A stretch of DNA of 16,495 bases, from NCBI GenBank assembly GCA_003155465.1, contig PMCR01000338.1, positions 1-16,495 on the forward strand, written 5' to 3'. Each line of letters begins with the position of its first letter. Positions within the stretch are counted from its first letter, which is position 1. Position numbers and translations under genes: made by a program. The notes below the pieces were generated by a model. The model made no database searches and was not told the origin of the DNA. It saw nothing but the letters and a program-made list of their open reading frames with translations. Source of the DNA: Myxococcales bacterium (lineage in GTDB: Bacteria; Myxococcota; Polyangia; Fen-1088). Positions 1,262 to 16,495 of this stretch are shown here, piece after piece.

Positions 1262-2557
1262 CTATCGTCCCAACGATCGCCGCAAGTTCACGCGTGCAAT
1301 CGCCAGTTCGTACTGGGCGCGCAGGTGGTTGAGGCGGGCCTGTGTCAGGGCTGACTGTGATTCGAGTAGATCTGTGGTGGTGGCGGTTCCGGCCTGGAGT
1401 TGTGCGTCGGTCACACGATAGGCTTCCTGCGCGCTGTCGATGGCCTGTTCTGCAACGGAAATGGCGCTGGCCGCGGCGTCGAGCTGGGCTAGGCCCGAGG
1501 CCACCTCGGCGCGAATCTGCAGCTTCTGGTTTTCCAGGTCCAAGGCCGCCGCGCGCGCCTGCGCCTGGCTGGCGCGATACGCGGCCCAGCTGGCGCCCCA
1601 TTCCCAGATGGCCCACTTGGCATTGAGACCGACAAAGGCGGAATTCGTGGGCAGGATGACCTGACCGTAGGAGCGCATGTACGCTCCCTCCAGATCAATC
1701 TCGGGCAGCAGGGCATACTGACGGGCCCGTCGCTGGTGTTCGCCCGCGTCGAGCAACAGCCGAGTCTGCAGAATCTCGGGACGGCCATCCAACGCCTGTA
1801 TCTGAGCGGCTGCTGTCTCAGGGCGATTCTGGCCCGATTCGAGTAGGGATCTCGGCTCGGCAAACGACACACCGATGTCGTCGGCCGGCAGACCCATCAA
1901 TGCCAGTAGGCCGGCACGCGAAACCAGTCCCTGCGCATGCGCTGAAATCGCCTGCTGGCGCGCGTTTGCCGCCGCCACTTTCACCCGCAGAACGTCAGCT
2001 TCGGTCAGCACCCCTGTGGCCAACTGCGCGCGCGCCACGCCCAAACGATCGTTGAGCTCGCGCTCAGAGGCAAGCGCGGTTTCCTCAAGCGCCTTGGCCT
2101 CGAAAACACGTAAATAGATGGTTTCCACGGCTTGCCGCAGAGACAGCTCGGCGCTTTGCTCCTGCGCCGCACCCGCCTGGGCGATCTCTTGCTGGCCGTG
2201 GTAGTCGGCAGACAAGCGCAGCAGACCAAGCAAGGGCTGATCCGCGGCAACCGTGAACATATTGGTGTCTTGCTTGCGAACCTGAAAAGATCCGGGCCCG
2301 ATCGCCGCATCGAAGGGCGAGTTGTAGTGCAGAAATTCATCACTGACATGAATGGCGGGCGCCAGGCGGCGGCCGGTGCTGCTCGCCATGGCTTGGCCAC
2401 CCTCCAGACGCGCCCGCACCGCTTGCAGAGCAGGATTCTGTCCCCGTGCAAGCGCCACCGCTTCCTCGACCGTGATGACCCGGTTCTCGTCCGCCCACGC
2501 AGCCGTGGAAAATCGCAGCGCGAGAGCGCAACAGAGCAAGCTACGAAAGCAACCCAT
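1262..2557 (-). CDS. TolC-like outer membrane efflux protein (OEP family)
   Basis: 431 residues, near the usual length for the outer membrane efflux family. Residues 1-22 form a signal peptide ending ...STAAWA. The mature part opens with ITVEEAVALARGQNPALQAVRARL, the usual first helix of OEP proteins. Two long Ala/Gln/Glu-rich coiled-coil repeats follow (about 130-220 and 325-425), each with the conserved Gly-x-leading-to-Asp/Leu turn (ATGVLTEADVLRVK; QAGTATTTDLLESQSALTQAR). TolC-type trimers form the outer membrane channel for drug pumps and type I secretion. ATG 2557 lies 3 nt after the emrA stop, and an AGG (from the last emrA codon) sits just upstream, so it is translated with the two genes before it. 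It is the last gene of the operon. No U-tract terminator is evident in the 147-bp gap that follows. Confidence 0.92.
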   Translation of the reverse strand: MGCFRSLLCCALALRFSTAAWADENRVITVEEAVALARGQNPALQAVRARLEGGQAMASSTGRRLAPAIHVSDEFLHYNSPFDAAIGPGSFQVRKQDTNMFTVAADQPLLGLLRLSADYHGQQEIAQAGAAQEQSAELSLRQAVETIYLRVFEAKALEETALASERELNDRLGVARAQLATGVLTEADVLRVKVAAANARQQAISAHAQGLVSRAGLLALMGLPADDIGVSFAEPRSLLESGQNRPETAAAQIQALDGRPEILQTRLLLDAGEHQRRARQYALLPEIDLEGAYMRSYGQVILPTNSAFVGLNAKWAIWEWGASWAAYRASQAQARAAALDLENQKLQIRAEVASGLAQLDAAASAISVAEQAIDSAQEAYRVTDAQLQAGTATTTDLLESQSALTQARLNHLRAQYELAIARVNLRRSLGR

Positions 2558-2560
2558 GGC

Positions 2561-3790
2561 TCACCTGAGGTGTACAGTCACGTCGACAGAATAGCCGGCG
2601 CGCAGATCGAGGTCCTTCGGAGGATTGGCCCAGGCAATGCGCACGGGAATTCGCTGGACCAGTTTGACGAAATTTCCCGTGGCGTTGTCAGACGGAATCA
2701 AGGAGAAGGTCGCACCCGTGCCGCCCGAGAGGCTTTCCACCCGGCCCTCCAGCTTGCGGCCCGGGTAGGCGTCCACGGTGATAACCGCCCGCTGGCCGAT
2801 CTTCATCCGGCCCACCTGCGTCTCCTTGAAATTGGCCACCACGTAGCTCGCGGTCGGGACAATGGAAATCACCGGCTGCCCGACCGCGGCCAGTTGCCCT
2901 GCGTGTGCCACCAGCCTGGAAGCCCAGCCGTCAGCCGGTGCCAAGATCTTGGTGTACGACAGTTGCAACCGCGCCAGGTCTAGCGCTGCCTGGGCGCTTT
3001 GCACCCGCGCATGGGCCAAAGCCGCGTTGGCCTCAGCCGCGGCGATCTGCGGCTCCACCGGCGCAGTCTGGCTCAAATGCCCCCGGGCTTCGTTCACGCG
3101 GGTCTGGGCGCCCCGGCGCGCGTCCCGGGCAAAAGCAAGTTGCGCGCGCGCTTGCCCGAGCGCGGCCTGGCTGCCATCAGAAGCGATCTGGGCTGCGTCC
3201 AGACGATCTTGTGGGATGGCATGCGCCGCCCGCAACTGCTTGGCGCGATCGAGATCGATCTGGGTCTTGTGGAAGTCAGCCTCGGCGCGTGCCACGGCGG
3301 CATTGGCCGCTGCCACCTGGGCGGAGGCACTGCTCACCCCGACGGAAGAGCCACTGACCGCGGCTTGCGCACTGGCGAACCCGCCGCGCGAGGTGGCACG
3401 CACCACCTGCACCTGGGCATCGGCAGACTGGGCCTGTGCCTGGGCGCTCGCCAGCTCGGCCTCGGTCTGACGCACCCGTGCCGTGTAGTCAGCATCGTCG
3501 ATCTCGGCCAGCGGGTCGCCCTTCTTGACCGTCTGGTTCTCCGAGATGCGAATGGCCACGAGCTGTCCCGCCACACGGGTGGCCACCGGGACCACGTCGG
3601 ACGTGATCTGGGCATCGTCGGTTTCTTCTTGGCCCGCGGTGGTGACGGCGTATGTGGCCACACTGGCCAGCACCGTGCCGATGATCACGGCCAGAACCAC
3701 GAAGGGCCGCCGCTTGTTGCGCGGGGCGGGCGCAGCCTCGTCGACCGGTGGGCTGTTCTTCGGAAAGGCAGATTGGGCAGATTCCTTCAT
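2561..3790 (-). CDS. emrA: EmrA-like periplasmic adaptor (HlyD/MFP family)
   Basis: 409 residues. A short cytoplasmic Lys/Arg-rich N-terminus is followed by one membrane anchor (about 29-50, FVVLAVIIGTVLASVATYAV). Next come the EmrA-type ETDDAQITSDVVPVATRVAGQ strand of the lipoyl/barrel-sandwich domain and SENQTVKKGDPLAEID. An Ala/Gln-rich helical hairpin spans about 100-270, then the second half of the lipoyl domain (LSYTKILAPADGWASRL) and a beta-barrel (VVANFKETQVGRMKIGQ). The hairpin spans the periplasm and meets TolC, while the anchor pairs with the EmrB permease. ATG 3790 begins 1 nt after the emrB stop, with GGAG 7 nt upstream formed by the end of emrB, a clear translational coupling. 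Substrate cannot be told from sequence. Confidence 0.93.
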   Translation of the reverse strand: MKESAQSAFPKNSPPVDEAAPAPRNKRRPFVVLAVIIGTVLASVATYAVTTAGQEETDDAQITSDVVPVATRVAGQLVAIRISENQTVKKGDPLAEIDDADYTARVRQTEAELASAQAQAQSADAQVQVVRATSRGGFASAQAAVSGSSVGVSSASAQVAAANAAVARAEADFHKTQIDLDRAKQLRAAHAIPQDRLDAAQIASDGSQAALGQARAQLAFARDARRGAQTRVNEARGHLSQTAPVEPQIAAAEANAALAHARVQSAQAALDLARLQLSYTKILAPADGWASRLVAHAGQLAAVGQPVISIVPTASYVVANFKETQVGRMKIGQRAVITVDAYPGRKLEGRVESLSGGTGATFSLIPSDNATGNFVKLVQRIPVRIAWANPPKDLDLRAGYSVDVTVHLR

Positions 3791-3791
3791 G

Positions 3792-5402
3792 CTACATCTC
3801 CACGTGAACCGCGGGCTGTACAGCAGCGGCCGACGCTTGACGAGGCGAGCGCCTCAAGAAGTACACCAGGGGCAACACGCACAAGAACGAGAGCCCGGTC
3901 AGCAGAAACACCTGTTCAAACGCGATAACCGCAGATTGTTTCGCGACTGCCCCCGCCACCGCGCGCACAGCGCCGGCGCGCGCCGCGGACGGGTTCATCC
4001 CCATACGCTCGAACGCCTGCTGCGCACTGTAGAGGCGGGGCATGAGGGTGGACGAACCGGCCACGATATGCGTGCCGAGGACGGCGCGAACCATCGACAT
4101 CCGGCGTGTGAGCACAGTGGCGAAGATCGCCAATCCAATCGAACCCCCGATGAAGCGAACCACCGAGTTCAGCCCGGCCGCATCGGCCAGCTTGTGGCGC
4201 GGCACGCGGCTCAGCGCCACTGTGGCCAAGGGCACGAACAGACAGCTGAACCCGAGTCCCTGCACCAGCAATGCGCCTATGATCCCGCTTTCCGACGTGG
4301 CCAGGGTGTAGTGGCTCATCATCCAGGTGCTGACCGCCACGCAAATCACGCCGAAGCTGACCACCAGGCGGGGCGAAAGAACGTTGTAGGTCCGGCCCAC
4401 GATGGGCGTGACCACCATCATGATCAGCGCCCGAGGCATGAGCGCCAGCCCCGACTGCGTCGCGGTGTAGCCCAGCACCTCTTGCAGAAACACCGGCAAC
4501 AGGAAAGTCACCGCCATCAGCAGCGCGAACATCACGCCACCCACCAGCGTCCCTGCGGCGAAGACCTTGTCTTTGAATAGCGAGATGTCCACCGCAGGAA
4601 CCGCAGCAGTCAACTCGCGCACAATGAAGGTTGCAATCGCAATGAATGAAACCAGGCTGAGGCTGGAGATGACCCGCGAGTCGAACCAGTCGTCGCGATT
4701 GCCTTCTTCGAGCACGTACTGCAGAGCTGCCAGGCCGATGCTGAGCAGGGCAATGCCGATCCAGTCCAGGTTTGCGCGCCGTTTTACCGCCATGGCCCGC
4801 TGGGCAGAGCGAAGATCCTCGGGCTCGCGGACGAAATTGGATACCATGACCAGCGCGAGCAGGCCGACCGGCAGATTGATGAAAAAGATCCACGGCCAAC
4901 TATAGTTGTCCACGATGTATCCGCCCAGGGTTGGCCCCAGCGCGGGTCCGATGATCACCGCCATGCCGAATACGGCCATCGCCATGCCCTGTTCTTTGGG
5001 CGGAAAGGTCTGGCGCAGGATCGCCTGCTCGGTGGGCTGCAGGGCGCCGGCCCCCAGCCCCTGGATGAAACGAAAGGCCACGAGCGTGGTCAGGCTACCG
5101 GCCAGCCCGCATAGGGCAGACGACAGGATGAAGATCGATAACGCGGCCATGTACACACGTTTTTGGCCGAAAAGATCTCCCAGAAACGCGGTCAGAGGCA
5201 TCACCACCACGTTGGCAATGACGAAACCGGTGGTGACCCAGGTGATTTCCTCGACTGTGGCGCCGAGTGATCCGCGCAGATGCGGCACTGCCACGTTCAC
5301 AATCGATGCGTCGATGGTGCCCATCAGGGTTCCAAAGGTCACGGAAATCGTGACCAGCCACTTGTTTACCGGTGGCGGCCCGCTGGGCGCGGGAGGGATC
5401 AT
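3792..5402 (-). CDS. emrB: DHA2-family MFS drug efflux permease (EmrB-like, 14 TM)
   Basis: 536 residues from ATG 5402; a TTG at 5435 would add 11 residues, and a stop lies just before it. Neither start has a clear ribosome-binding site, so the start is uncertain. Features of the DHA2 family: TMS1 motif TIDASIVNVAVPHL, motif A GDLFGQKRVYM after TMS2, RFIQGLGAGALQPTEQAIL, and the antiporter motif C GMAVIIGPALGPTLGGYI in TMS5. A hydrophobic profile consistent with 14 segments runs to the end, which is a short basic/Ala-rich cytoplasmic tail. EmrB exports hydrophobic compounds using the proton gradient, through EmrA and TolC. It is the first gene of the three-gene operon. No TetR or MarR regulator is adjacent. 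Confidence 0.93.
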   Translation of the reverse strand: MIPPAPSGPPPVNKWLVTISVTFGTLMGTIDASIVNVAVPHLRGSLGATVEEITWVTTGFVIANVVVMPLTAFLGDLFGQKRVYMAALSIFILSSALCGLAGSLTTLVAFRFIQGLGAGALQPTEQAILRQTFPPKEQGMAMAVFGMAVIIGPALGPTLGGYIVDNYSWPWIFFINLPVGLLALVMVSNFVREPEDLRSAQRAMAVKRRANLDWIGIALLSIGLAALQYVLEEGNRDDWFDSRVISSLSLVSFIAIATFIVRELTAAVPAVDISLFKDKVFAAGTLVGGVMFALLMAVTFLLPVFLQEVLGYTATQSGLALMPRALIMMVVTPIVGRTYNVLSPRLVVSFGVICVAVSTWMMSHYTLATSESGIIGALLVQGLGFSCLFVPLATVALSRVPRHKLADAAGLNSVVRFIGGSIGLAIFATVLTRRMSMVRAVLGTHIVAGSSTLMPRLYSAQQAFERMGMNPSAARAGAVRAVAGAVAKQSAVIAFEQVFLLTGLSFLCVLPLVYFLRRSPRQASAAAVQPAVHVEM

Positions 5403-5462
5403 GGAATTTTGCACAGACGGCAAACGAGATTCCAAACATCAGCGGACAGAATTCGAACTCGC

Positions 5463-8769: not shown

Positions 8770-10824
8770 CTACACACGCACTCTGCTGAGACCTTCCATC
8801 AGGGCTTTGAACCCCGGAAAGTCCAGACTCTGGTCGCCGTCGGATAGCGCCTTGTCGGGTTCGGGGTGAACCTCGATGCTGACGCCGTGGGCGCCGCAGG
8901 CGCGCGCGGCCCAGGCCATGGGCGCCACATAGGGCCGCTTGCCGGTGCCGTGGCTCGGATCCACGATGATGGGCAGATGGGTGCGCTCGCGCAGCACCAC
9001 CACGGCGGACAGATCCAGCGTGTTGCGGGTGGCGCTTTCGAAGGTGCGAATGCCTCGTTCGCACAGAATGACTTGGCCGTTGCCCTGCGCCAGGATGTAT
9101 TCGGCAGCCGCCAGCCATTCCTCGATGGTGCTCGACAGGCCGCGCTTGAGCATCACCGGCCGGTCCACCTTGCCCACGGCTGACAGCAACGGGAAATTCT
9201 GCATGTTGCGTGCGCCGATCTGCAGGATGTCCGACTTCTCGGCCACCAGGTGCACCTGGTCGATGGTCATCACCTCGGTGATTATGGGCAGGCCTGCGGC
9301 CTTGCCCGCAGCGGCCAGCAGATCCAGACCGTCGCGGCCGAGCCCCTGGAAAGCATAGGGGCCGGTGCGTGGCTTGAACACGCCCCCGCGCAGGATGTGG
9401 GCCCCTTGCTCGCGCACAAAAAGGGCGGTGCGGTTGATCTGGTCTTCCGACTCCACTGAACAGGGACCGGCAATGACCACGAAGCCAGTGCCGCCGATGA
9501 GCAGCGATCCCACTCGGATGATGGTGTCTTCGGGATGGGTGGCGCGGTCGGCGAGCCGGTAGTGCTTGGAGGCACGCGCGATCGGCTGGCCGGGCGCAGC
9601 TCGGCTGGCGGGCGGTGCCTCCGGTATGGCAGTCGTGACCTCGGCGGCATGGGGCAGGGTGGTGGTTTGGGCGTCGGCGGGCGTGGCCTTGGCGGGATAG
9701 CAGCCGAGGATTTTCAGGTAGAGCGCCTCGCTGCGCAAGGCTTCAAGCGCCACGGCGGCCCCCTCTTGCGCCACGTTGCCCTCGAAGTCGATGAAGAACA
9801 TGTATTCCCAAGGACGGTTCGGTCGCGGCCGCGATTCCAACTTGGTCATGCTCAGCCCGTACTCGGCCAGGATGTGCAGGCAACGGAGCAGAGCACCCTT
9901 TTCGTGCCGGGTGGACAGGATCAGGCTGGTCTTGCAGGGCACCCGGACATCCACGGAAACGGGCGCGCGGGCCAGCGCCACGTAGCGCATGAGGATTTCT
10001 TCCTGGTTGCCCACGTTGCGGTTCAGAACACGAAGGTCATGCGCTGCCGCGGCCTCGGGGGAGCCGATCGCGGCCAGGGTCGGATCCTTGGCCTCAGCCA
10101 CGGCGCGCATCGCCTCGCGGGTGTCGAGGTAGGGCACTGCGCGTGCCTGGGGCAAGGCTGCGATGAAAGCGGAGCACTGGTCGAGCGCCAGCGGGTGCGA
10201 CAGAATCCGGCGCAGCGCGGCCGCGGGCACATCGGCAGTGGCCGCGAGGCACAGTTCGACCCGGTACGACTCTTCGCCCACGATGTGCAGGTCTTGCTCG
10301 CGCAAGACGTCGTACACCTGATTGATGCTGCCTGCGACGGTGTTCTCGATAGGCAGAAAGGCGAGATCGACTGCACCGGACGCCAACGAGTCGATCACCT
10401 GCTTGAGTGTAGGCAAGCCCGCGAAGCGGCCGGGCAAGTCCTGGCTGGCCACGTACTGCTCCGCGGCCAGGTTGTTGTAGGTCAGCGACGAGCCCTGAAA
10501 GGCGACCACCACCTCGGTCCGTTCGCCCTCGATCCCGGCCAGCGATGCCACCTGGCGGCTGACCGAGTAGCTGATGATCTCGGAGAATATCTTGCGCGCC
10601 AGGGGGGCCGACAGCCCCAACGATTGGGCCAAAGTCTCAACCCGCGCCAAGACCTCGCGTTCGCGTTCCGGATCCCGAATGGCCTGGGTCGAACCGGCCT
10701 TCTCCTTGGCGATGAGGCCGACCGTATCCAGTCGCTTGGCCAGAAGATGGACGATCTCGTCGTCCATCTGGTTGAGACGTTGGCGCAGATCTTTCAGGGC
10801 GGGATTCGCGGATTCGTTGCTCAT
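8770..10824 (-). CDS. aroF: Three-part fusion: chorismate mutase (AroQ) - prephenate dehydratase-like/ACT - DAHP synthase (type I beta)
   Basis: 684 residues from ATG 10824. Residues 10-95 are an AroQ chorismate mutase with the E. coli-type catalytic set in place (Arg14, Arg31, Lys42, Asp51, the RDPERE motif, Ser87, Gln91). Residues ~104-290 are prephenate dehydratase-like ([15 protein letters not shown] 157-166, SHPLALDQC), but family active-site positions are changed: the TRF motif reads MRY (279-281). Residues ~298-375 are an ACT domain with KGAL (309-312) and ESRP (330-333), the Phe-binding motifs. An Ala/Pro/Thr linker (378-428) leads to DAHP synthase (430-684): GPCSVES with Cys455, [34 protein letters not shown] with His625, EVHP with Glu651 and SDG with Asp662, the four metal ligands. 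So the first shikimate step and chorismate-to-prephenate sit in one chain, probably Phe-regulated. Start lies 24 nt after the preceding oxidoreductase gene. Confidence 0.92.
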
Positions 10825-10848: not shown

Positions 10849-11919
10849 CTAGAGCGGTAGCGTCACGGGTGCGCCGCTTTCGGCGGACTGGTAGACGCCG
10901 AGGACGATCTCCAGCGCTCTGCAGCCTTCCTCGCCGTCGATCGCGGGGCATCGCTCCTCACGTATAGCGTCGAGGAAGTCCTCCAACTGGCGTTCACGGC
11001 AGGCCAGGTCCACATGGCGCGGGTCGGGCGCGCCATTGCCGCCGGTCAGCTGCGCTGCACGCCATCTTTCCAATTCCGCCTCTTCCTCGCCGCGGTTGTC
11101 CAGGCGCCAGGTCGTGATCTCGTCGCCTTCAAGGATGATGCTGCCCCGCTCGCCGTGCAGTTCCAGCCGGCGCAAGAAACCCGGGGCCACCGCCGTGCTG
11201 GCCTGGATGACACCTGTGGCGCCTGAGCGGAAGCGCACCACCGCCCAAGCGGCGTCTTCGCACTCGATGTGGGAATGGCGAAGCTTGTCGGTCATGCCGA
11301 AGACCGAAGACACGGGGCCGGCCACGTGCTGAAGCAGGTCCACGGTGTGGATGGCCTGATTGATGAGCGCGCCACCGCCATCGAGCGCGCGCGTACCCCG
11401 CCAGGCGGCGGCTTCGTAGTAGGACCGCGGGCGGAACCATTTGACGTAGGCGTCGGCCATGTAGATTCGTCCCAACCGGCCATTGTCGATGGCACGCTTG
11501 ATGAGCCGAACCGCCGGGAGGAAGCGCGATTGGAGTAGCACCCCGAGGCTGACCCCGTGCTGCCGGCAGGCACCGATGAGGGCGTGCGCCTTTTCCAGCG
11601 TGACCTCGATGGGTTTCTCCACCAGAACGTGCTTGCCCGCACGAGCCGCACGCGCACCGAGTTCGGCGTGGGTGCCATTGGGGGTGGCGATGGTGACCAC
11701 CTGGATGTCCGGGCGTGCGAAGAAGCGCTCGGCGTCCACCATGGCATCTACGCCGAAGCGGTCGGCCATGGCCTGGGTGGCGTCACGCCGCCGGCCGAGA
11801 AAGGCCCGTAGTTTGGCACCCGGGATGGATGCGAGGGCCTGGGCGTGGACAGGTGCGATGTTCCCGACACCGACCACGCCAAATCCAACCTCAAACTTGG
11901 GCAGGGGTGCGAGCACCAT
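10849..11919 (-). CDS. Gfo/Idh/MocA-family NAD(P)-dependent oxidoreductase
   Basis: 356 residues from ATG 11919, chosen over TTG 11955 because GAGGA lies 7 nt upstream of the ATG. The N-terminal Rossmann fold has GVVGVGNIAPVHAQ (Gly17, Gly19) and ATPNGTHAE, followed by the family motif EKP (101-103, catalytic Lys102). The C-terminal alpha/beta domain carries GGGALINQAIHTVDLL with the conserved His191. These enzymes oxidise or reduce a hydroxyl/keto group of a sugar or cyclitol in the cytoplasm; the substrate cannot be named. The stop lies 24 nt before the fusion gene start, so the two are probably one transcript. No metabolic link to aromatic synthesis is obvious. Confidence 0.88.
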   Translation of the reverse strand: MVLAPLPKFEVGFGVVGVGNIAPVHAQALASIPGAKLRAFLGRRRDATQAMADRFGVDAMVDAERFFARPDIQVVTIATPNGTHAELGARAARAGKHVLVEKPIEVTLEKAHALIGACRQHGVSLGVLLQSRFLPAVRLIKRAIDNGRLGRIYMADAYVKWFRPRSYYEAAAWRGTRALDGGGALINQAIHTVDLLQHVAGPVSSVFGMTDKLRHSHIECEDAAWAVVRFRSGATGVIQASTAVAPGFLRRLELHGERGSIILEGDEITTWRLDNRGEEEAELERWRAAQLTGGNGAPDPRHVDLACRERQLEDFLDAIREERCPAIDGEEGCRALEIVLGVYQSAESGAPVTLPL

Positions 11920-12061
11920 GAGCGTATCCTCGTCGGCGGGGCACCCCCACGTCAATCGCCTCGCAGCTCACGCGCTGACAGGCGTCTTGCACGCTTGACA
12001 TTCAGAGCGGCTGTGGGTCACGGCCTCGCCAGGGCCATGAGCGGCGAGACCGGTGGCCGGT

Positions 12062-12107: not shown

Positions 12108-13013
12108 TTACGGCATAGGTGCCACGGCCATGCCCATGGCGTGATAGCCCTTGTCGACGTAGACGGTGCTGCCCGTGATGCCAGAGGCGAGCGGGCTTGC
12201 GAGGAAAGCCGCCACCGCACCCACCTCGGCAGCGGTGATGGCCTGGGGCAAGGGTGAGTTGGCGCGGCAGTAGTCAATCATGGGTTGGATTGAGCCGATG
12301 GCGCTGGCCGCGCGCGAGGGCCACGGGCCAGCGGAGATCACGTTTACGCGCAGACCCCACTTGCGGCCAGCCTCGAAGGCGAGCACCCGCGCATCGCTTT
12401 CCAGAGCGGCCTTGGCCGACGCCATGCCGCCCCCGTAGCCGGGCACCACACGCAGGCTGGCGAGGTAGGACAGTGCCAAGAACGAACCACCGGGCCGAAC
12501 CAGCGGGCCCAGCCGCTGCACCATGGAGGCAAAGGAAAAGCTGCTCGTTCCCACTGCAGCCAGGTATCCCTTGCGACTGGTTTCGAGCAGCGGCTTCTTC
12601 ACTTCAGGGCCGTTGGCCAGGCTGTGCACCACGATGTCCAGGCACGATTCGCCGAAGTCTGCGCGCAGGCGGTCTGCCAAGCCCGCGATGCTGAAATCGC
12701 CGCAGTCGCGATAGCGCCGGTGTTCGCGCACGGCGGAGGGGACATCGGCGTCGCTGTCGAAGTCGGCATCCATGGGCCAGGTGCGTTCGAAAGCAAGCGT
12801 GCTTCCGTCTGATAGGCGCAAGGACTCTTCGAGCTTGCCCCGCTCAAGCAGAGAACGGAAGATCCCTAGCACCGGCGGCCAGGTGGCGAGGCAAATGGTC
12901 GCGCCCGCCTCGGCCAGCGCCTTGGCGATGGCAAAGCCAAAGCCGCTGTCGTCCACCACGCCAGCGACCAGGGCACGTCTTCCGGTCAGATCAATCTTGA
13001 GCATTCCGCACAT
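12108..13013 (-). CDS. fabI: Enoyl-ACP reductase FabI, plant/Chlamydia type
   Basis: 301 residues from ATG 13013; ATG 13004 (MLKIDLTG) is equally plausible, and an upstream GTG at 13079 is unlikely because it falls inside a large inverted repeat. It is a short-chain dehydrogenase that performs the last, NADH-dependent step of each fatty-acid elongation round. The cofactor loop reads VAGVVDDSGFGFAIAK. Diagnostic stretches HSLANGPEVKKPLLETSRKG, PGYGGGMASAKAALESD and RVLAFEAGRKWGLRVN are near-identical to plastid and apicomplexan FabI. The catalytic Tyr193 and Lys201 are eight apart, as in plants, not seven as in E. coli FabI. It also keeps the insert around WPMDADFDSDADVPSAVREHRRY typical of that clade. 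The gene follows pheA after a 171-bp gap holding the repeat. No other fatty-acid gene is nearby. Confidence 0.93.
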   Translation of the reverse strand: MCGMLKIDLTGRRALVAGVVDDSGFGFAIAKALAEAGATICLATWPPVLGIFRSLLERGKLEESLRLSDGSTLAFERTWPMDADFDSDADVPSAVREHRRYRDCGDFSIAGLADRLRADFGESCLDIVVHSLANGPEVKKPLLETSRKGYLAAVGTSSFSFASMVQRLGPLVRPGGSFLALSYLASLRVVPGYGGGMASAKAALESDARVLAFEAGRKWGLRVNVISAGPWPSRAASAIGSIQPMIDYCRANSPLPQAITAAEVGAVAAFLASPLASGITGSTVYVDKGYHAMGMAVAPMP

Positions 13014-13050
13014 GGTTTCGCGGGTTGGGCTTCTCGTCAAGGCGCCGGCC

Positions 13051-13147
13051 GAGAACGCAGAGGGGAGAGGGGATGTCACAGTGTCGGAGGCTGCGCGTTC
13101 GCCTTCCTCGTGCCTCTCGGTGGACTCCCTCTCCCCTCAGTGTTCTC
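13051..13147. repeat. Large inverted repeat between pheA and fabI
   Basis: Arms of 21 bp (13051-13071 and 13127-13147) pair at 19 of 21 positions, including 11 uninterrupted pairs (AGGGGAGAGGG with CCCTCTCCCCT) and six at the ends (GAGAAC with GTTCTC), around a 55-bp loop. It could form a long RNA hairpin in the pheA-fabI transcript (attenuator, processing site or terminator without U-run), or be a dispersed intergenic repeat, since CCCTCTCC palindromes are often multi-copy in bacterial genomes. Confidence 0.7.
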
Positions 13148-13184: not shown

Positions 13185-14069
13185 CTAGATCTCCGCTCGA
13201 GGATACGACCCGAAGATGCGCACGCTCTCGGCGGCGCCGGCCAGGGCGGCCAGGGCGCGGCGTACATTGGCATCGTTCCTGTCGCCGACGAAGTCCAGAT
13301 AGAAGGAATACTCCCAGGGCCGGCCTACGATGGGACGCGACTCGATCTTGGTCAGGTCGACCTGTTCGGCAGCGAAAGCGTAGAGCGAGGCGTACAGCGA
13401 TCCCGGGCGGTTGGCGATGCGGAACACCAGGCTGGTCTTGCGTTCCTTGGACTGGCCGTTCAGGGGAATGCGCGCCACGCGGTCGGGGCGCGCCATGACG
13501 AAGAAGCGGGTGAAGTTCTGCGGGTTGCTCTCGATGCCCGAGGCCAGGATATGCGCGCCGAAGACCTCGGCGGCGCTCCTGCTTGCGATGGCGGCCTCGT
13601 CGTGCCGCCCGTTTTTCACCACCATCTTCACTGCACCGGCGGTGTCGTACGCGGGCAACACCTCCAGATCTGGTGTCTGTTGTCGCAGCTTGCGCAGATA
13701 ATCCTCGCATTGGGCCAGCGCCACCGGGTGCGAGAGCACGCGGCGCACATCGCCGAGTTTGACACCGCGGGGAGCGATGAGGTTGTGCGCCACGCGCAGC
13801 ACCACTTCGCCGATGATGGTCAGGTCGTAGCCCACCAAGAGGTCGTAGTTCTTGATGACCGATCCAGCCAGGGTGTTCTCGATGGGGACCACCGCGCAGT
13901 CGGCGTCTCCCCGCACCACCGCGTCGAACATGTCGTCGAACTCGCGCTGGGGCAAAGGCTCTAGCCGTCGCCCCAAGAAGCGGCGGGCCGCCTCCTCAGA
14001 AAATGCGCCGCGCTCGCCCTGGAAGGAGGCTCGAATCCGTCCTTTTCTTGCTGTAACCGTCTTGGTCAC
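13185..14069 (-). CDS. pheA: Prephenate dehydratase with ACT domain (monofunctional)
   Basis: 294 residues from GTG 14069, a normal length for a stand-alone prephenate dehydratase. It converts prephenate to phenylpyruvate, the committed step to Phe. Family motifs are intact: FQGERGAFSEEAA (16-28), VPIENTLAGS (61-70), IIGEVVLRVAHNL with His95, SHPVALAQC (113-121) and the catalytic NFTRFFV with Thr187-Arg188-Phe189. The C-terminal ACT domain (about 211-290) has the ESRP motif (243-246) and GSL in place of the usual GAL, so Phe inhibition is likely. No chorismate mutase domain is attached. The GTG overlaps the stop of the upstream regulator by 4 nt (GTGA), so translation depends on that gene. 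It is the second dehydratase-type sequence in the window and the only one with a complete active site. Confidence 0.95.
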   Translation of the reverse strand: MTKTVTARKGRIRASFQGERGAFSEEAARRFLGRRLEPLPQREFDDMFDAVVRGDADCAVVPIENTLAGSVIKNYDLLVGYDLTIIGEVVLRVAHNLIAPRGVKLGDVRRVLSHPVALAQCEDYLRKLRQQTPDLEVLPAYDTAGAVKMVVKNGRHDEAAIASRSAAEVFGAHILASGIESNPQNFTRFFVMARPDRVARIPLNGQSKERKTSLVFRIANRPGSLYASLYAFAAEQVDLTKIESRPIVGRPWEYSFYLDFVGDRNDANVRRALAALAGAAESVRIFGSYPRAEI

Positions 14070-14758
14070 GACGTGCCTGGTGCACGCATCTTATAACCTA
14101 CGTGGCGCACCGTCTCTATCATCTCGGCGCCAGGTCCCAACTTGGCGCGCAACCGCCGAACATGGATGTCCACCGTGCGTGTGTTGCCGGTGTAGCGGTA
14201 GCCCCACACCCGCGACAGAAGCTGCTCGCGCGTAAACACACGGCCTGCGCCCACAGCCAGGAACTTGAGGAGCTGGAACTCCTGCCGCGGCAGTTTGAGC
14301 ACGCGGCTGCGGTAGCTGGCCTCCACCGCCACGGTATCGATGACCAGATCGCCCAGCTTGATGCGGCCCGAAGCCGAGAAGGACGACAGCCGCCAATCGA
14401 GCTGGCGCACCCGCGCGTAGAGCTCGGGTCCCACGATGGGGAGGAGGACGAAGTCATCCATGCCCAGCTCCGGATCGAGGCCGGGCAATCGAGAAACTTC
14501 GATGCACAAGAGAATGGGCACCTCGGCCAGGGTGGGGATCTGCTTGGCGTGCTTGACCACAGCGCGGCCCACCTCCAGGTACGGGCCCGCGTCCACCACC
14601 ACCACGGCAGGCCGGATGTGCTCCAGATCGTCAGGCAGGTCATCCAGGTCGTAGCCGACGGGAACCACCTCGCAGCCCAACTCGCGCAGGGCGGCTGCAG
14701 GCGAGTCCACCTCGGCTGCGCCGACCTGCGGTCTCGACATGATGACGACTGCGCGCAT
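14066..14758 (-). CDS. Atypical OmpR-family response regulator, GlnR-like
   Basis: 230 residues from ATG 14758; an upstream ATG at 14818 would add 20 residues that look non-coding and cover the likely promoter. Residues ~1-120 have receiver shape but are degenerate: the acidic pair after strand 1 is missing (MRAVVIMSRP). Asp56 is kept (AVVVVDAGP), the Thr/Ser is replaced by Cys (ILLCIE), and the Lys of the KP motif is lost (MDDFVLLPIVGPELYARV). Residues ~133-226 are an OmpR winged helix (RVLKLPRQEFQLLKFLA, GRVFTREQLLSRVWGY, TRTVDIHVRRLRAKLG, IETVRHVGYKM). Both halves, including the GxDDxxL...GPxE stretch, resemble actinobacterial GlnR, a nitrogen regulator that works without normal phosphorylation. 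It is divergent from gltB and overlaps pheA by 4 nt. No sensor kinase is adjacent. GlnR-like function is inferred. Confidence 0.85.
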   Translation of the reverse strand: MRAVVIMSRPQVGAAEVDSPAAALRELGCEVVPVGYDLDDLPDDLEHIRPAVVVVDAGPYLEVGRAVVKHAKQIPTLAEVPILLCIEVSRLPGLDPELGMDDFVLLPIVGPELYARVRQLDWRLSSFSASGRIKLGDLVIDTVAVEASYRSRVLKLPRQEFQLLKFLAVGAGRVFTREQLLSRVWGYRYTGNTRTVDIHVRRLRAKLGPGAEMIETVRHVGYKMRAPGTS

Positions 14759-14770
14759 TTCTAGAAACAC

Positions 14771-14799
14771 AGGGTAGCAGGGACAAAAACAATAGTCAC
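14771..14799 (-). promoter_or_regulatory. candidate promoter for the regulator-pheA operon
   Basis: Minus-strand GTGACT (14799-14794), a 17-bp spacer rich in T, and TACCCT (14776-14771). The predicted transcription start near 14764 would leave only about 6 nt before ATG 14758. That fits the absence of a ribosome-binding site there and suggests a near-leaderless mRNA. Confidence 0.35.
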
Positions 14800-14853
14800 T
14801 ACGGGCAGAAGGATTCATGCATTGTTTCGATGGCGCGCGGCCGCAGGGCTATT

Positions 14854-14981: not shown

Positions 14982-16495
14982 ATGAACAGCACGAAAGCAA
15001 CGCGGCAAGATGGCCCCCGGCGGCAGGGGCTCTACGATCCGGCCAACGAGCACGAAGCATGCGGCGTGGGCTTTGTGGTGGATATCGCGGGCAAGAAGTC
15101 GCACCGGATCGTGCGCGATGGGATTCGGGTTCTGGAGAACCTGGGCCATCGAGGGGCCAGCGGCTCTGAGGAGAACACGGGCGACGGCGCCGGGATCTTG
15201 GTTCAGCTCCCTGATGCCTTTCTGCGCAGCGTGACCGCCAACATCGGCATCAAGTTGCCTCCTGCCGGCCAGTACGCAGTCGGCATGGTCTTCTTGCCGT
15301 GCGAGCCGGCCGCGGCCGCCGCGTGCCAGCGCCTCTTTGAGACTGGCGCCGGCGAGTTGGGGCACAAGGTGATTGGTTGGCGCGAGGTTCCCACCAACCC
15401 GACCGGCTTGGGCAAGACCGCGCTGGAATCCCGCCCGGCCATGGCGCAGGTCTTTGTGGACCGGCCTGCGGCGCTTGTTGACGACGCGGCTTTCGAGCGA
15501 CGCCTGGTGCTCGTGCGCCGCACCGCCGAGAGGCTGGTCAGGACAAGCGATCTGGGCGGGCGCAAGTCCTTCTACATTGCCAGCCTCTCGTGCCGGACCT
15601 TGGTGTACAAGGGAATGCTCAACGCCGACCAGCTCGACACCTTCTTCCCCGATCTCTCCGAGCTATCACTCGAATCTGCGCTGGCTCTGGTGCACTCGCG
15701 TTTCTCCACCAACACCTTCCCCAGTTGGTCACGCGCCCATCCCTACCGGGTGATTGCCCACAACGGGGAGATCAATACCCTACGCGGCAACGTGAACTGG
15801 ATGTCGGCGCGCGAGCATGACCTGGCTTCGCCGCTCTTTGGCGCCGACATCGAACGGCTGCATCCGGTGGTCGACGAGACCGGCAGCGACTCGGCCATGT
15901 TCGACAACGTGCTGGAAACCCTGGTCATCGGCGGCCGCAGCCTTCCCCACGCGGTGATGATGATGATCCCGGAGCCATGGCACAAGCACAAGACCATGAG
16001 CCCGGAGAAGCGCGCCTTTTACGAGTACCACTCTTGCCTGATGGAGCCGTGGGACGGCCCAGCCGCGATCTGTTTCACCGACGGCGCGCAGATCGGCGCG
16101 GTGCTGGATCGCAACGGTCTGCGGCCTCTGCGCTACACTCTCACCAGCGACGGCCTGGTGGTCATGGCGTCGGAGACGGGAGTGCTCGACATTCCGGCCG
16201 AGAAGATCGTGCAGAAGGGCCGTATCCAGCCGGGGCGCATGTTCCTGGTAGACACCGTCGAGAGGCGCATCGTCCCGGACGAAGAGATCAAGACCAAGGT
16301 CGCGGCCGAGCTGCCCTACGCGGAATGGGTCGAGTCCCAGCGGGTCCATATGAAAGACCTGCCGCCGGCCCCCGCGACGCCGTTGGCCGATCACGAGACC
16401 CTGGAGCTTCGGCAGAACGTCTTTGGCTACACCGCTGAGGTGCTGCGCCTGTTGCAGCCCATGGTGGAAACCGGGGGCGAGGCCATCGGCTCCAT
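14982..16495 (+). CDS. gltB: Glutamate synthase (GOGAT) large subunit, N-terminal part, cut by the window edge
   Basis: 504 codons are open from ATG 14982 to the right edge; the full protein should be about 1500 residues. The N-terminal class II glutamine amidotransferase domain spans about 27-420. A 26-residue propeptide precedes the nucleophile Cys27 (EHEACGVGF), which becomes residue 1 after cleavage. Family motifs follow: LGHRGASGSEENTGDGAGIL, HSRFSTNTFPSW, HNGEINTLRGNVNWM (from His260), DETGSDSAMFDNVLE, MMIPEPW, EPWDGPAAICFTDG and DRNGLRPLRY. The last residues enter the central domain. The enzyme takes the amide of glutamine and, with 2-oxoglutarate, makes two glutamates; the FMN/Fe-S part lies outside the window. 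The ribosome-binding site is weak (GAAGAGA). It is divergent from the GlnR-like regulator and has a possible operator upstream. Confidence 0.97.
   Translation, partial: MNSTKATRQDGPRRQGLYDPANEHEACGVGFVVDIAGKKSHRIVRDGIRVLENLGHRGASGSEENTGDGAGILVQLPDAFLRSVTANIGIKLPPAGQYAVGMVFLPCEPAAAAACQRLFETGAGELGHKVIGWREVPTNPTGLGKTALESRPAMAQVFVDRPAALVDDAAFERRLVLVRRTAERLVRTSDLGGRKSFYIASLSCRTLVYKGMLNADQLDTFFPDLSELSLESALALVHSRFSTNTFPSWSRAHPYRVIAHNGEINTLRGNVNWMSAREHDLASPLFGADIERLHPVVDETGSDSAMFDNVLETLVIGGRSLPHAVMMMIPEPWHKHKTMSPEKRAFYEYHSCLMEPWDGPAAICFTDGAQIGAVLDRNGLRPLRYTLTSDGLVVMASETGVLDIPAEKIVQKGRIQPGRMFLVDTVERRIVPDEEIKTKVAAELPYAEWVESQRVHMKDLPPAPATPLADHETLELRQNVFGYTAEVLRLLQPMVETGGEAIGS

Follow-up and report, generated by a model that had tools for sequence, protein, structure and literature searches.

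The stretch of DNA that we analysed, hereafter the window, covers positions 1 to 16,495 of contig PMCR01000338.1 from a Myxococcales bacterium (16,495 nucleotides). Positions 8770–10824 of its reverse strand encode a protein of 684 residues, for which domain profiles gave the order AroQ chorismate mutase (CM), prephenate dehydratase (PDT), ACT and type I-beta DAHP synthase (DAHPS). The CM domain (residues 13–91, 10552–10788; PF01817, 1.7e-19) is followed by the PDT module (residues 104–290, 9955–10515; Pfam match 107–287, PF00800, 1.1e-41), which scored 143 bits against a cut-off of 25.2 although its catalytic set is incomplete. An ACT domain (residues about 296–380, 9685–9939) and a fast-evolving linker (9583–9684) lead to the DAHPS domain (residues about 415–682, 8779–9582), which reached 430.5 bits with NF006421 (cut-off 335) and 384.7 bits with TIGR01361 (cut-off 267.75). 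All of these segments are read from the reverse strand.

The same strand carries, 24 bases upstream of the fusion gene, a gene for a Gfo/Idh/MocA-family oxidoreductase (10849–11955) and, further upstream, a separate monofunctional PheA of 294 residues (13185–14069) with GAFS, His and TRF present. An enoyl-ACP reductase-like gene (12108–13079, reverse strand) lies between pheA and the fusion. A gene for an OmpR-type regulator (14066–14818, reverse strand) overlaps pheA by four bases; since Pfam matches only the DNA-binding part of its product, the receiver half appears atypical or degenerate. Elsewhere in the window we noted a tripartite efflux set at 1262–5435 (reverse strand) comprising an outer membrane efflux protein, an HlyD-type membrane fusion protein and an MFS transporter, a tandem repeat at 639–742 (1.9 copies of a 54-base unit) within a proline/valine-rich open frame, and an open frame at 14982–16493 (forward strand) that exits the window and by eye resembles the beginning of the large subunit of a glutamate synthase.

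Altered residues of the fused dehydratase module

We compared the fusion with E. coli PheA, taken as DNA from NC_000913, and with the separate PheA of the window. Residues E159, N160, S208 and Q215 of E. coli PheA map onto the identical E160, N161, S209 and Q216 of the fusion, H190 corresponds to L191 (10252–10254, reverse strand), and T278, the catalytic Thr of TRF, corresponds to M279 (codon ATG, 9988–9990, reverse strand). The segment FQGERGAFSEEAA of the separate PheA (encoded on the reverse strand) aligns with 13 residues of the fusion spanning L114-T115-Y116-N117 (10474–10485, reverse strand), which replaces the GA[FY]S-type motif. Judged by the catalytic Thr and a GxxS-type motif, the module does not qualify as a PDT, because the window protein reads M279 and LTYN at these places. 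PIENT, KGAL and ESRP are kept, and the stretch HEKGALL together with ESRP provides, as far as sequence can tell, the GAL and ESRP motifs of the Phe-binding ACT domain of PDT. The E. coli CM residues R11, R28, K39, D48, R51, E52, S84 and Q88 are found as R14, R31, K42, D51, R54, E55, S87 and Q91, making up a complete AroQ CM set, and the metal and substrate residues C455, K484, H625, E651 and D662 of DAHPS are intact. We take the catalytic positions to be those of E. coli CM and of T. maritima DAHPS, respectively. Every letter of the residue changes named in the preliminary description was confirmed by the alignment with the separate PheA, and its statement that PIENT, the ACT motifs and the CM and DAHPS catalytic residues are kept held as well. 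According to PMC6599085, the substitution T278A was used to abolish the PDT activity of E. coli PheA.

Conservation among close homologues

As close homologues we took the best 120 of 1,354 proteins at E ≤ 1e-20 (7,996 candidates scored) and aligned all 120 of them. They are at least 71% identical over the aligned part of the query, and the NCBI names shown are Polyangia. This alignment of many fused modules, a check that the preliminary description had proposed, bore out that the changes are fixed among the listed proteins: L114, T115, Y116 and N117 each occur in 120/120, M279 occurs in 119 (P0073 has Thr) and L191 in 117, the other three having Pro. E160 is also invariant among them, N161, S209, H210, Q216 and R280 are each found in 120/120, and so are the GAL and ESRP motifs of ACT. 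The CM set is complete in 117 of the 120 listed proteins (P0055, P0060 and P0063 are gapped there). A complete DAHPS set was read in 118, the exceptions being P0045 (503 residues) and P0085 (396 residues), whose chains are short, and the PDT set is complete in none.

The genome scan yielded 11 loci, eight from Myxococcales and one each from Deltaproteobacteria, a Proteobacteria metagenome assembly and Peptoclostridium litorale (31% identity). The assignment of the G-numbered relatives to Myxococcota is based on the record titles of L001–L010. One homologue, L009 (genome G009, 64% identical), reads YTFN with His kept and Met279, and another, L109 (genome G392, 62% identical), reads YSYD with His kept, Cys279 and Gly209. 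Given these motifs, Gly114, Ser117 and Thr279 (numbered, like His191, by position in the window fusion) are replaced throughout G001–G009 and in G392, and His was apparently lost later than the other three. The contig-edge piece of the fusion in G010 shows Met279 only.

The change of His191 to Leu, which the preliminary description had counted as evidence of lost chemistry, did not survive comparison with sister genomes. In six of their CM-PDTs the His is replaced by Met or Leu, yet GTFS or GSFS and TRF are kept, and in five of these six genomes this protein is the sole PF00800 match. We therefore dropped Leu191 as a mark of inactivity.

The invariant positions also bear on the question of whether the cleft has been rebuilt, so that it would bind prephenate or another ring acid without turnover or perform other chemistry. 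The new residues L114, T115, Y116, N117 and M279 match in invariance the retained E160, N161, S209, Q216 and R280, whose conservation suggests a partly intact cleft with possible residual or altered activity. Moreover, S209 is stricter in the clade (120/120 listed) than in the other fusions considered below (170 of 240 listed), and the fused CM of the Geobacillus and B. subtilis DAHPS is described as sensing prephenate or chorismate (PMC5526877). However, the listed clade is so close-knit, with 65 of 187 module positions invariant, that the invariance of the new residues carries little weight, and YTFN and YSYD at 114–117 in L009 and L109 argue against a single fixed new site. We regard a rebuilt cleft as rather doubtful.

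Derivation of the loss

Among the 377 genomes from the phylum of G002, 181 had a match, and the best-scoring places in other genomes showed the same four-domain order with G-[AS]-[YF]-S, His and TR[FML]. In the order of G002, the fusion is present in 11 of 18 genomes (one as a fragment), a CM-PDT without DAHPS in six, and one has no match. The fusions of G291 and G260 (the latter being P0241) have complete CM, PDT and DAHPS sets, and that of G395 keeps the PDT and DAHPS sets and carries ASL instead of GAL as its ACT motif.

For a wider comparison we used 240 other fusions, namely the best 120 listed for each of two PDT-intact queries (L057 and L034), which are not random samples. All 240 carry CM, PDT and DAHPS Pfam matches. 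G114 was found in 237 of them and S117, H191 and T279 in 238 each; the sets of all three enzymes are complete in 200, the PDT set in 230 and the DAHPS set in 214. By the completeness of all three catalytic sets the window clade is thus not trifunctional, its PDT set being complete in 0/120 listed proteins versus 230/240 elsewhere. Among positions conserved to at least 95% in the 240 fusions, those changed in the clade number 11 of 35 in PDT, 2 of 13 in CM, 1 of 24 in ACT and 5 of 77 in DAHPS (Fisher test of PDT versus the rest, p = 5.5e-4, a descriptive value since positions are not independent). The PDT changes thus exceed what chance would give.

In PDT-ACT trees the window group formed one clade, with seven rows at 100/98 in one tree and six rows at 100/99 in another, and it nested in a 35-row set (100/96). 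Gly, Ser, His and Thr are kept in most of the remaining rows of this set. The exceptions are P0347 and, with a single change each among the four residues, P0166 and P0351; P0179 and L061 are changed elsewhere in the PDT set. TRF is kept in the outgroup rows whose motifs were read. Because the other listed fusions are mostly complete and both the 35-row neighbours and the outgroups mostly keep the motifs, we take the CM-PDT-ACT-DAHPS architecture to be usually trifunctional and the PDT loss to be derived in the window lineage. The preliminary description had held that homologues of this architecture retaining TRF and the other active-site residues would refute its reading. The outcome of this check is mixed: such homologues exist, as the Thr in 238 of 240 listed fusions attests, but they belong to other lineages, so that they mark the loss as derived and do not overturn the reading.

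The P0347 fusion reads G114A, S117G, N161D and T279A with an intact DAHPS set, and it is a candidate for a separate, independent PDT loss. L061 (genome G066, 1019–2776) is a PDT-ACT-DAHPS protein without CM whose gene adjoins a CM-PDT gene on the same strand. We do not claim it as a further dead PDT on DAHPS, as GAHS, His and TRF are kept and its substitutions S209A and Q216E are shared by 49 and 5 of the 240 other listed fusions, respectively.

Selection and predicted fold

The dN/dS ratios (Nei-Gojobori) for eight clade pairs, which share sequences and are not independent, were 0.065–0.195 for the PDT module, close to the 0.04–0.23 for CM, with 0–0.22 for ACT, 0.01–0.15 for DAHPS and 0.19–0.97 for the linker. 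A pair of complete fusions (L033/L034) gave 0.24 for PDT. In the pairs L040/L041 and L036/L040, which have the converse defect described below, the broken DAHPS gave 0.27 and 0.63 and the live PDT 0.11 and 0.27. PDT identity exceeds CM identity by 5 to 20 points in seven live-PDT pairs, and the difference is –5 to +8 in six window-group pairs; this narrowed gap points to a mild rate shift in the window group without collapse. The module is maintained under purifying selection, and the low dN/dS rules out a decaying pseudo-domain in the window clade. Lost catalytic residues are thus combined with purifying selection on the domain, the combination by which we recognise a pseudoenzyme. The AF2 model of PDT-ACT had a mean pLDDT of 92.8, and its top solved matches were 6vh5 (PDT with Phe) and 2qmx (L-Phe-inhibited PDT) at TM 0.86–0.87. 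The model supports a retained PDT fold, and it speaks to the fold and not to activity or Phe binding.

Purifying selection on a dead domain would suit a structural role as well as sensing. The module could have become a scaffold that no longer relays Phe control and just holds CM and DAHPS assembled, and the persistence of the G392 protein, in which PDT and DAHPS are broken and the CM set is intact, fits this. Against such a scaffold, GAL and ESRP are invariant in the 120 listed close homologues and are kept in G392 and G009 too, and only one of the 24 conserved ACT positions has changed in the clade. We therefore think it unlikely that the module is a scaffold only.

Genome context

Nine of the ten carrier genomes (G001–G010) have a second, separate PDT. 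GAFS, His and TRF were read in the separate PheA of eight carriers and are visible also in G009, whose gene is divided between the ends of two contigs. G010 had no PF00800 match, with only the contig-edge piece of the fusion present. G392 has two PDTs side by side, its separate PheA adjoining the fusion. In the PDT-ACT tree the separate PheA sits on a different PDT branch from the fused module. G291 and G260, with complete fusions, have one PF00800 match each. A second PheA does not by itself predict PDT loss, because G395 keeps the PDT set of its fusion despite a second PDT-ACT match. Two PDTs occur also in G221, G380, G197, G135, G268 and G178, whose PDTs are of the converse type described below or related to it.

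The fused CM is the sole AroQ CM match in eight of the ten carriers; in the two others, G004 has a run of N there and in G010 the fusion is cut at the contig end, and neither gave an AroQ CM match. All carriers show one or more additional PF00793 matches; that of G008 is a fragment only, beside class II DAHPS fragments, and G009 additionally has a class II DAHPS. The one examined from G002 (L131) is a DAHPS of type I-beta with a ferredoxin-like regulatory domain; this domain was not found in the G006 stretch tested.

These data also weigh on whether the module might still be an active dehydratase with unusual residues. The predicted PDT fold and the several cleft residues kept would allow it. 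Prephenate is acid-labile and readily decarboxylated, which also counts in its favour. GqqA adds a caution, since it rescues a pheA mutant even though, by the count of its authors, no more than two of the four catalytic residues of E. coli are conserved in it (PMC8192741). In our reading of the sequences, Y16 and S17 of the GqqA cleft would be the Tyr-Ser pair and T174 the Thr; the window fusion has lost this Ser and this Thr. Against retained activity, Thr279 is kept in 238 of the 240 other listed fusions and another PDT is present in nine of the ten carriers and in G392. An active fused dehydratase is thus highly improbable.

Broken DAHPS and the origin of the fusion

The converse state exists as well. 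G135, G268, G221, G380, G197 and G141 retain an intact PDT set alongside broken DAHPS residues, the extent of the damage varying among the first five. Of the 240 other listed fusions, 26 likewise combine a complete PDT set with an incomplete one for DAHPS. In G392 (L109/L128) the PDT and DAHPS sets are both broken, and the CM set and the ACT motifs are intact. At the level of single loci, L036, L040, L041, L042, L049 and L057 have an intact PDT and a broken or remnant DAHPS. L062 and L067 have tails of 235 and 259 residues past ACT with no DAHPS profile match, possibly a further DAHPS remnant.

In a 2005 paper, an aroA-I-beta pseudogene fused to aroQ-pheA in Shewanella oneidensis is described as "bizarre" and of unknown origin, and its authors muse that a discarded fusion domain might turn regulatory (PMC1173090). 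This is a precedent for the idea and for the converse state, not for a dead PDT.

On whether the fusion arose once, the trees disagree. The 16 fused DAHPS domains sampled lie on one side of a 95/96 branch, apart from 13 without PDT fusion, in a tree with long branches. The PDT-ACT tree, by contrast, rejects a separate clade of fused rows that would leave out E. coli PheA and other unfused proteins (AU p 1.9e-101). The DAHPS tail was therefore likely lost in some lineages, though it may instead have been gained repeatedly. E. coli PheA (L101) falls among the four-domain fusions in this tree. Its placement, though not secured inside one fused subgroup (p 0.265), suggests a DAHPS-bearing ancestor as a possible source of gamma-proteobacterial PheA.

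A pseudo-dehydratase as a probable coupler

Sequence evidence makes it likely that dehydratase chemistry has been lost in the fused module. We favour, as probable though far from certain, a pseudo-dehydratase that descends from a working dehydratase and is kept to couple CM and DAHPS, both structurally and by sensing Phe. In one lineage of soil Myxococcota that also carries a separate PheA, PDT catalysis would have been lost from a trifunctional CM-PDT-ACT-DAHPS ancestor. The PDT fold would have been kept because it bears the Phe-binding ACT domain and relays an open/closed change to the flanking CM and DAHPS; open and closed states of PDT regulated by Phe binding are reported in PMC8192741, citing Tan 2008. 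Phe would then restrain both the entry to the pathway (DAHPS) and the branch to prephenate (CM) in spite of the dead fused dehydratase. The lack of activity in the fusion, Phe binding and the direction of control are what we infer from the sequence pattern.

The preliminary description had taken the module for a pseudoenzyme kept for regulation, an interpretation that our data support in part. Its first part, the loss of chemistry, is well supported by sequence, as G114, S117 and T279 are replaced clade-wide and a separate PheA occurs in nine of ten carriers, and the low dN/dS speaks for maintenance. Its second part, a putative Phe feedback on DAHPS, fits the invariant GAL and ESRP. The case of G392 cautions that the PDT shell is kept for more than the control of DAHPS, because the DAHPS residues are lost there and such control cannot be the role of the module in that protein.

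A more speculative extension, which we consider unlikely as it stands, is a two-input sensor: Phe at ACT and unreacted prephenate, the product of the fused CM, in a rebuilt PDT cleft, with one polypeptide reporting both to DAHPS. More broadly, a widespread trifunctional protein of the aromatic pathway would repeatedly shed one catalytic unit and keep the shell.

Comparison with known systems

The literature searched, which covers the field partially and is no proof of absence, yielded no account of a DAHPS fusion whose PDT is dead; the same partial coverage yielded no experimental study of a trifunctional CM-PDT-ACT-DAHPS protein. The P-protein PheA of the E. coli type shares the CM-PDT-ACT order, the CM residues and the GAL and ESRP motifs of ACT with the window fusion, which differs by lacking the catalytic Thr and the GxxS-type motif, by the added C-terminal DAHPS and by being the sole AroQ CM in eight carriers. 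Other four-domain fusions, with Phycisphaerae, Planctomycetes, Ignavibacteria, Melioribacteraceae, Rhodocaloribacter, Stygiobacter and Myxococcota among their sources, have the same domain order and full-length homology. Unlike the window clade, which lost the PDT set, 200 of the 240 listed have the catalytic sets of all three enzymes.

HisZ, the regulatory subunit of ATP phosphoribosyltransferase, resembles the window fusion solely in the way it works: through it, what was once an enzyme conveys end-product control to the enzyme at the head of a pathway. In contrast to the window fusion, HisZ is a separate subunit in another pathway. We take HisZ to be a dead HisRS paralogue.

In the type I-beta DAHPS of B. 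subtilis, Listeria and Geobacillus, a pathway-enzyme domain also serves as the allosteric regulator; as described in PMC5526877, that regulator is a CM sensing chorismate or prephenate, whereas the window fusion has a dead PDT with a Phe-type ACT domain. The aroQ-pheA-aroA-I-beta fusion of S. oneidensis, compared by its description in PMC1173090, shares the order of the fused parts and likewise contains a single dead catalytic domain, which there is DAHPS, and the four-domain fusions are a candidate origin of this PheA-fused DAHPS pseudogene. The complete fusions, those in which only PDT or only DAHPS is broken and that of G392 with both broken offer a natural series of steps by which an enzyme joined to working neighbours may turn into a regulator. 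If control by Phe or prephenate holds true, the window fusion would represent a new allosteric layout for the entry step of the shikimate pathway.
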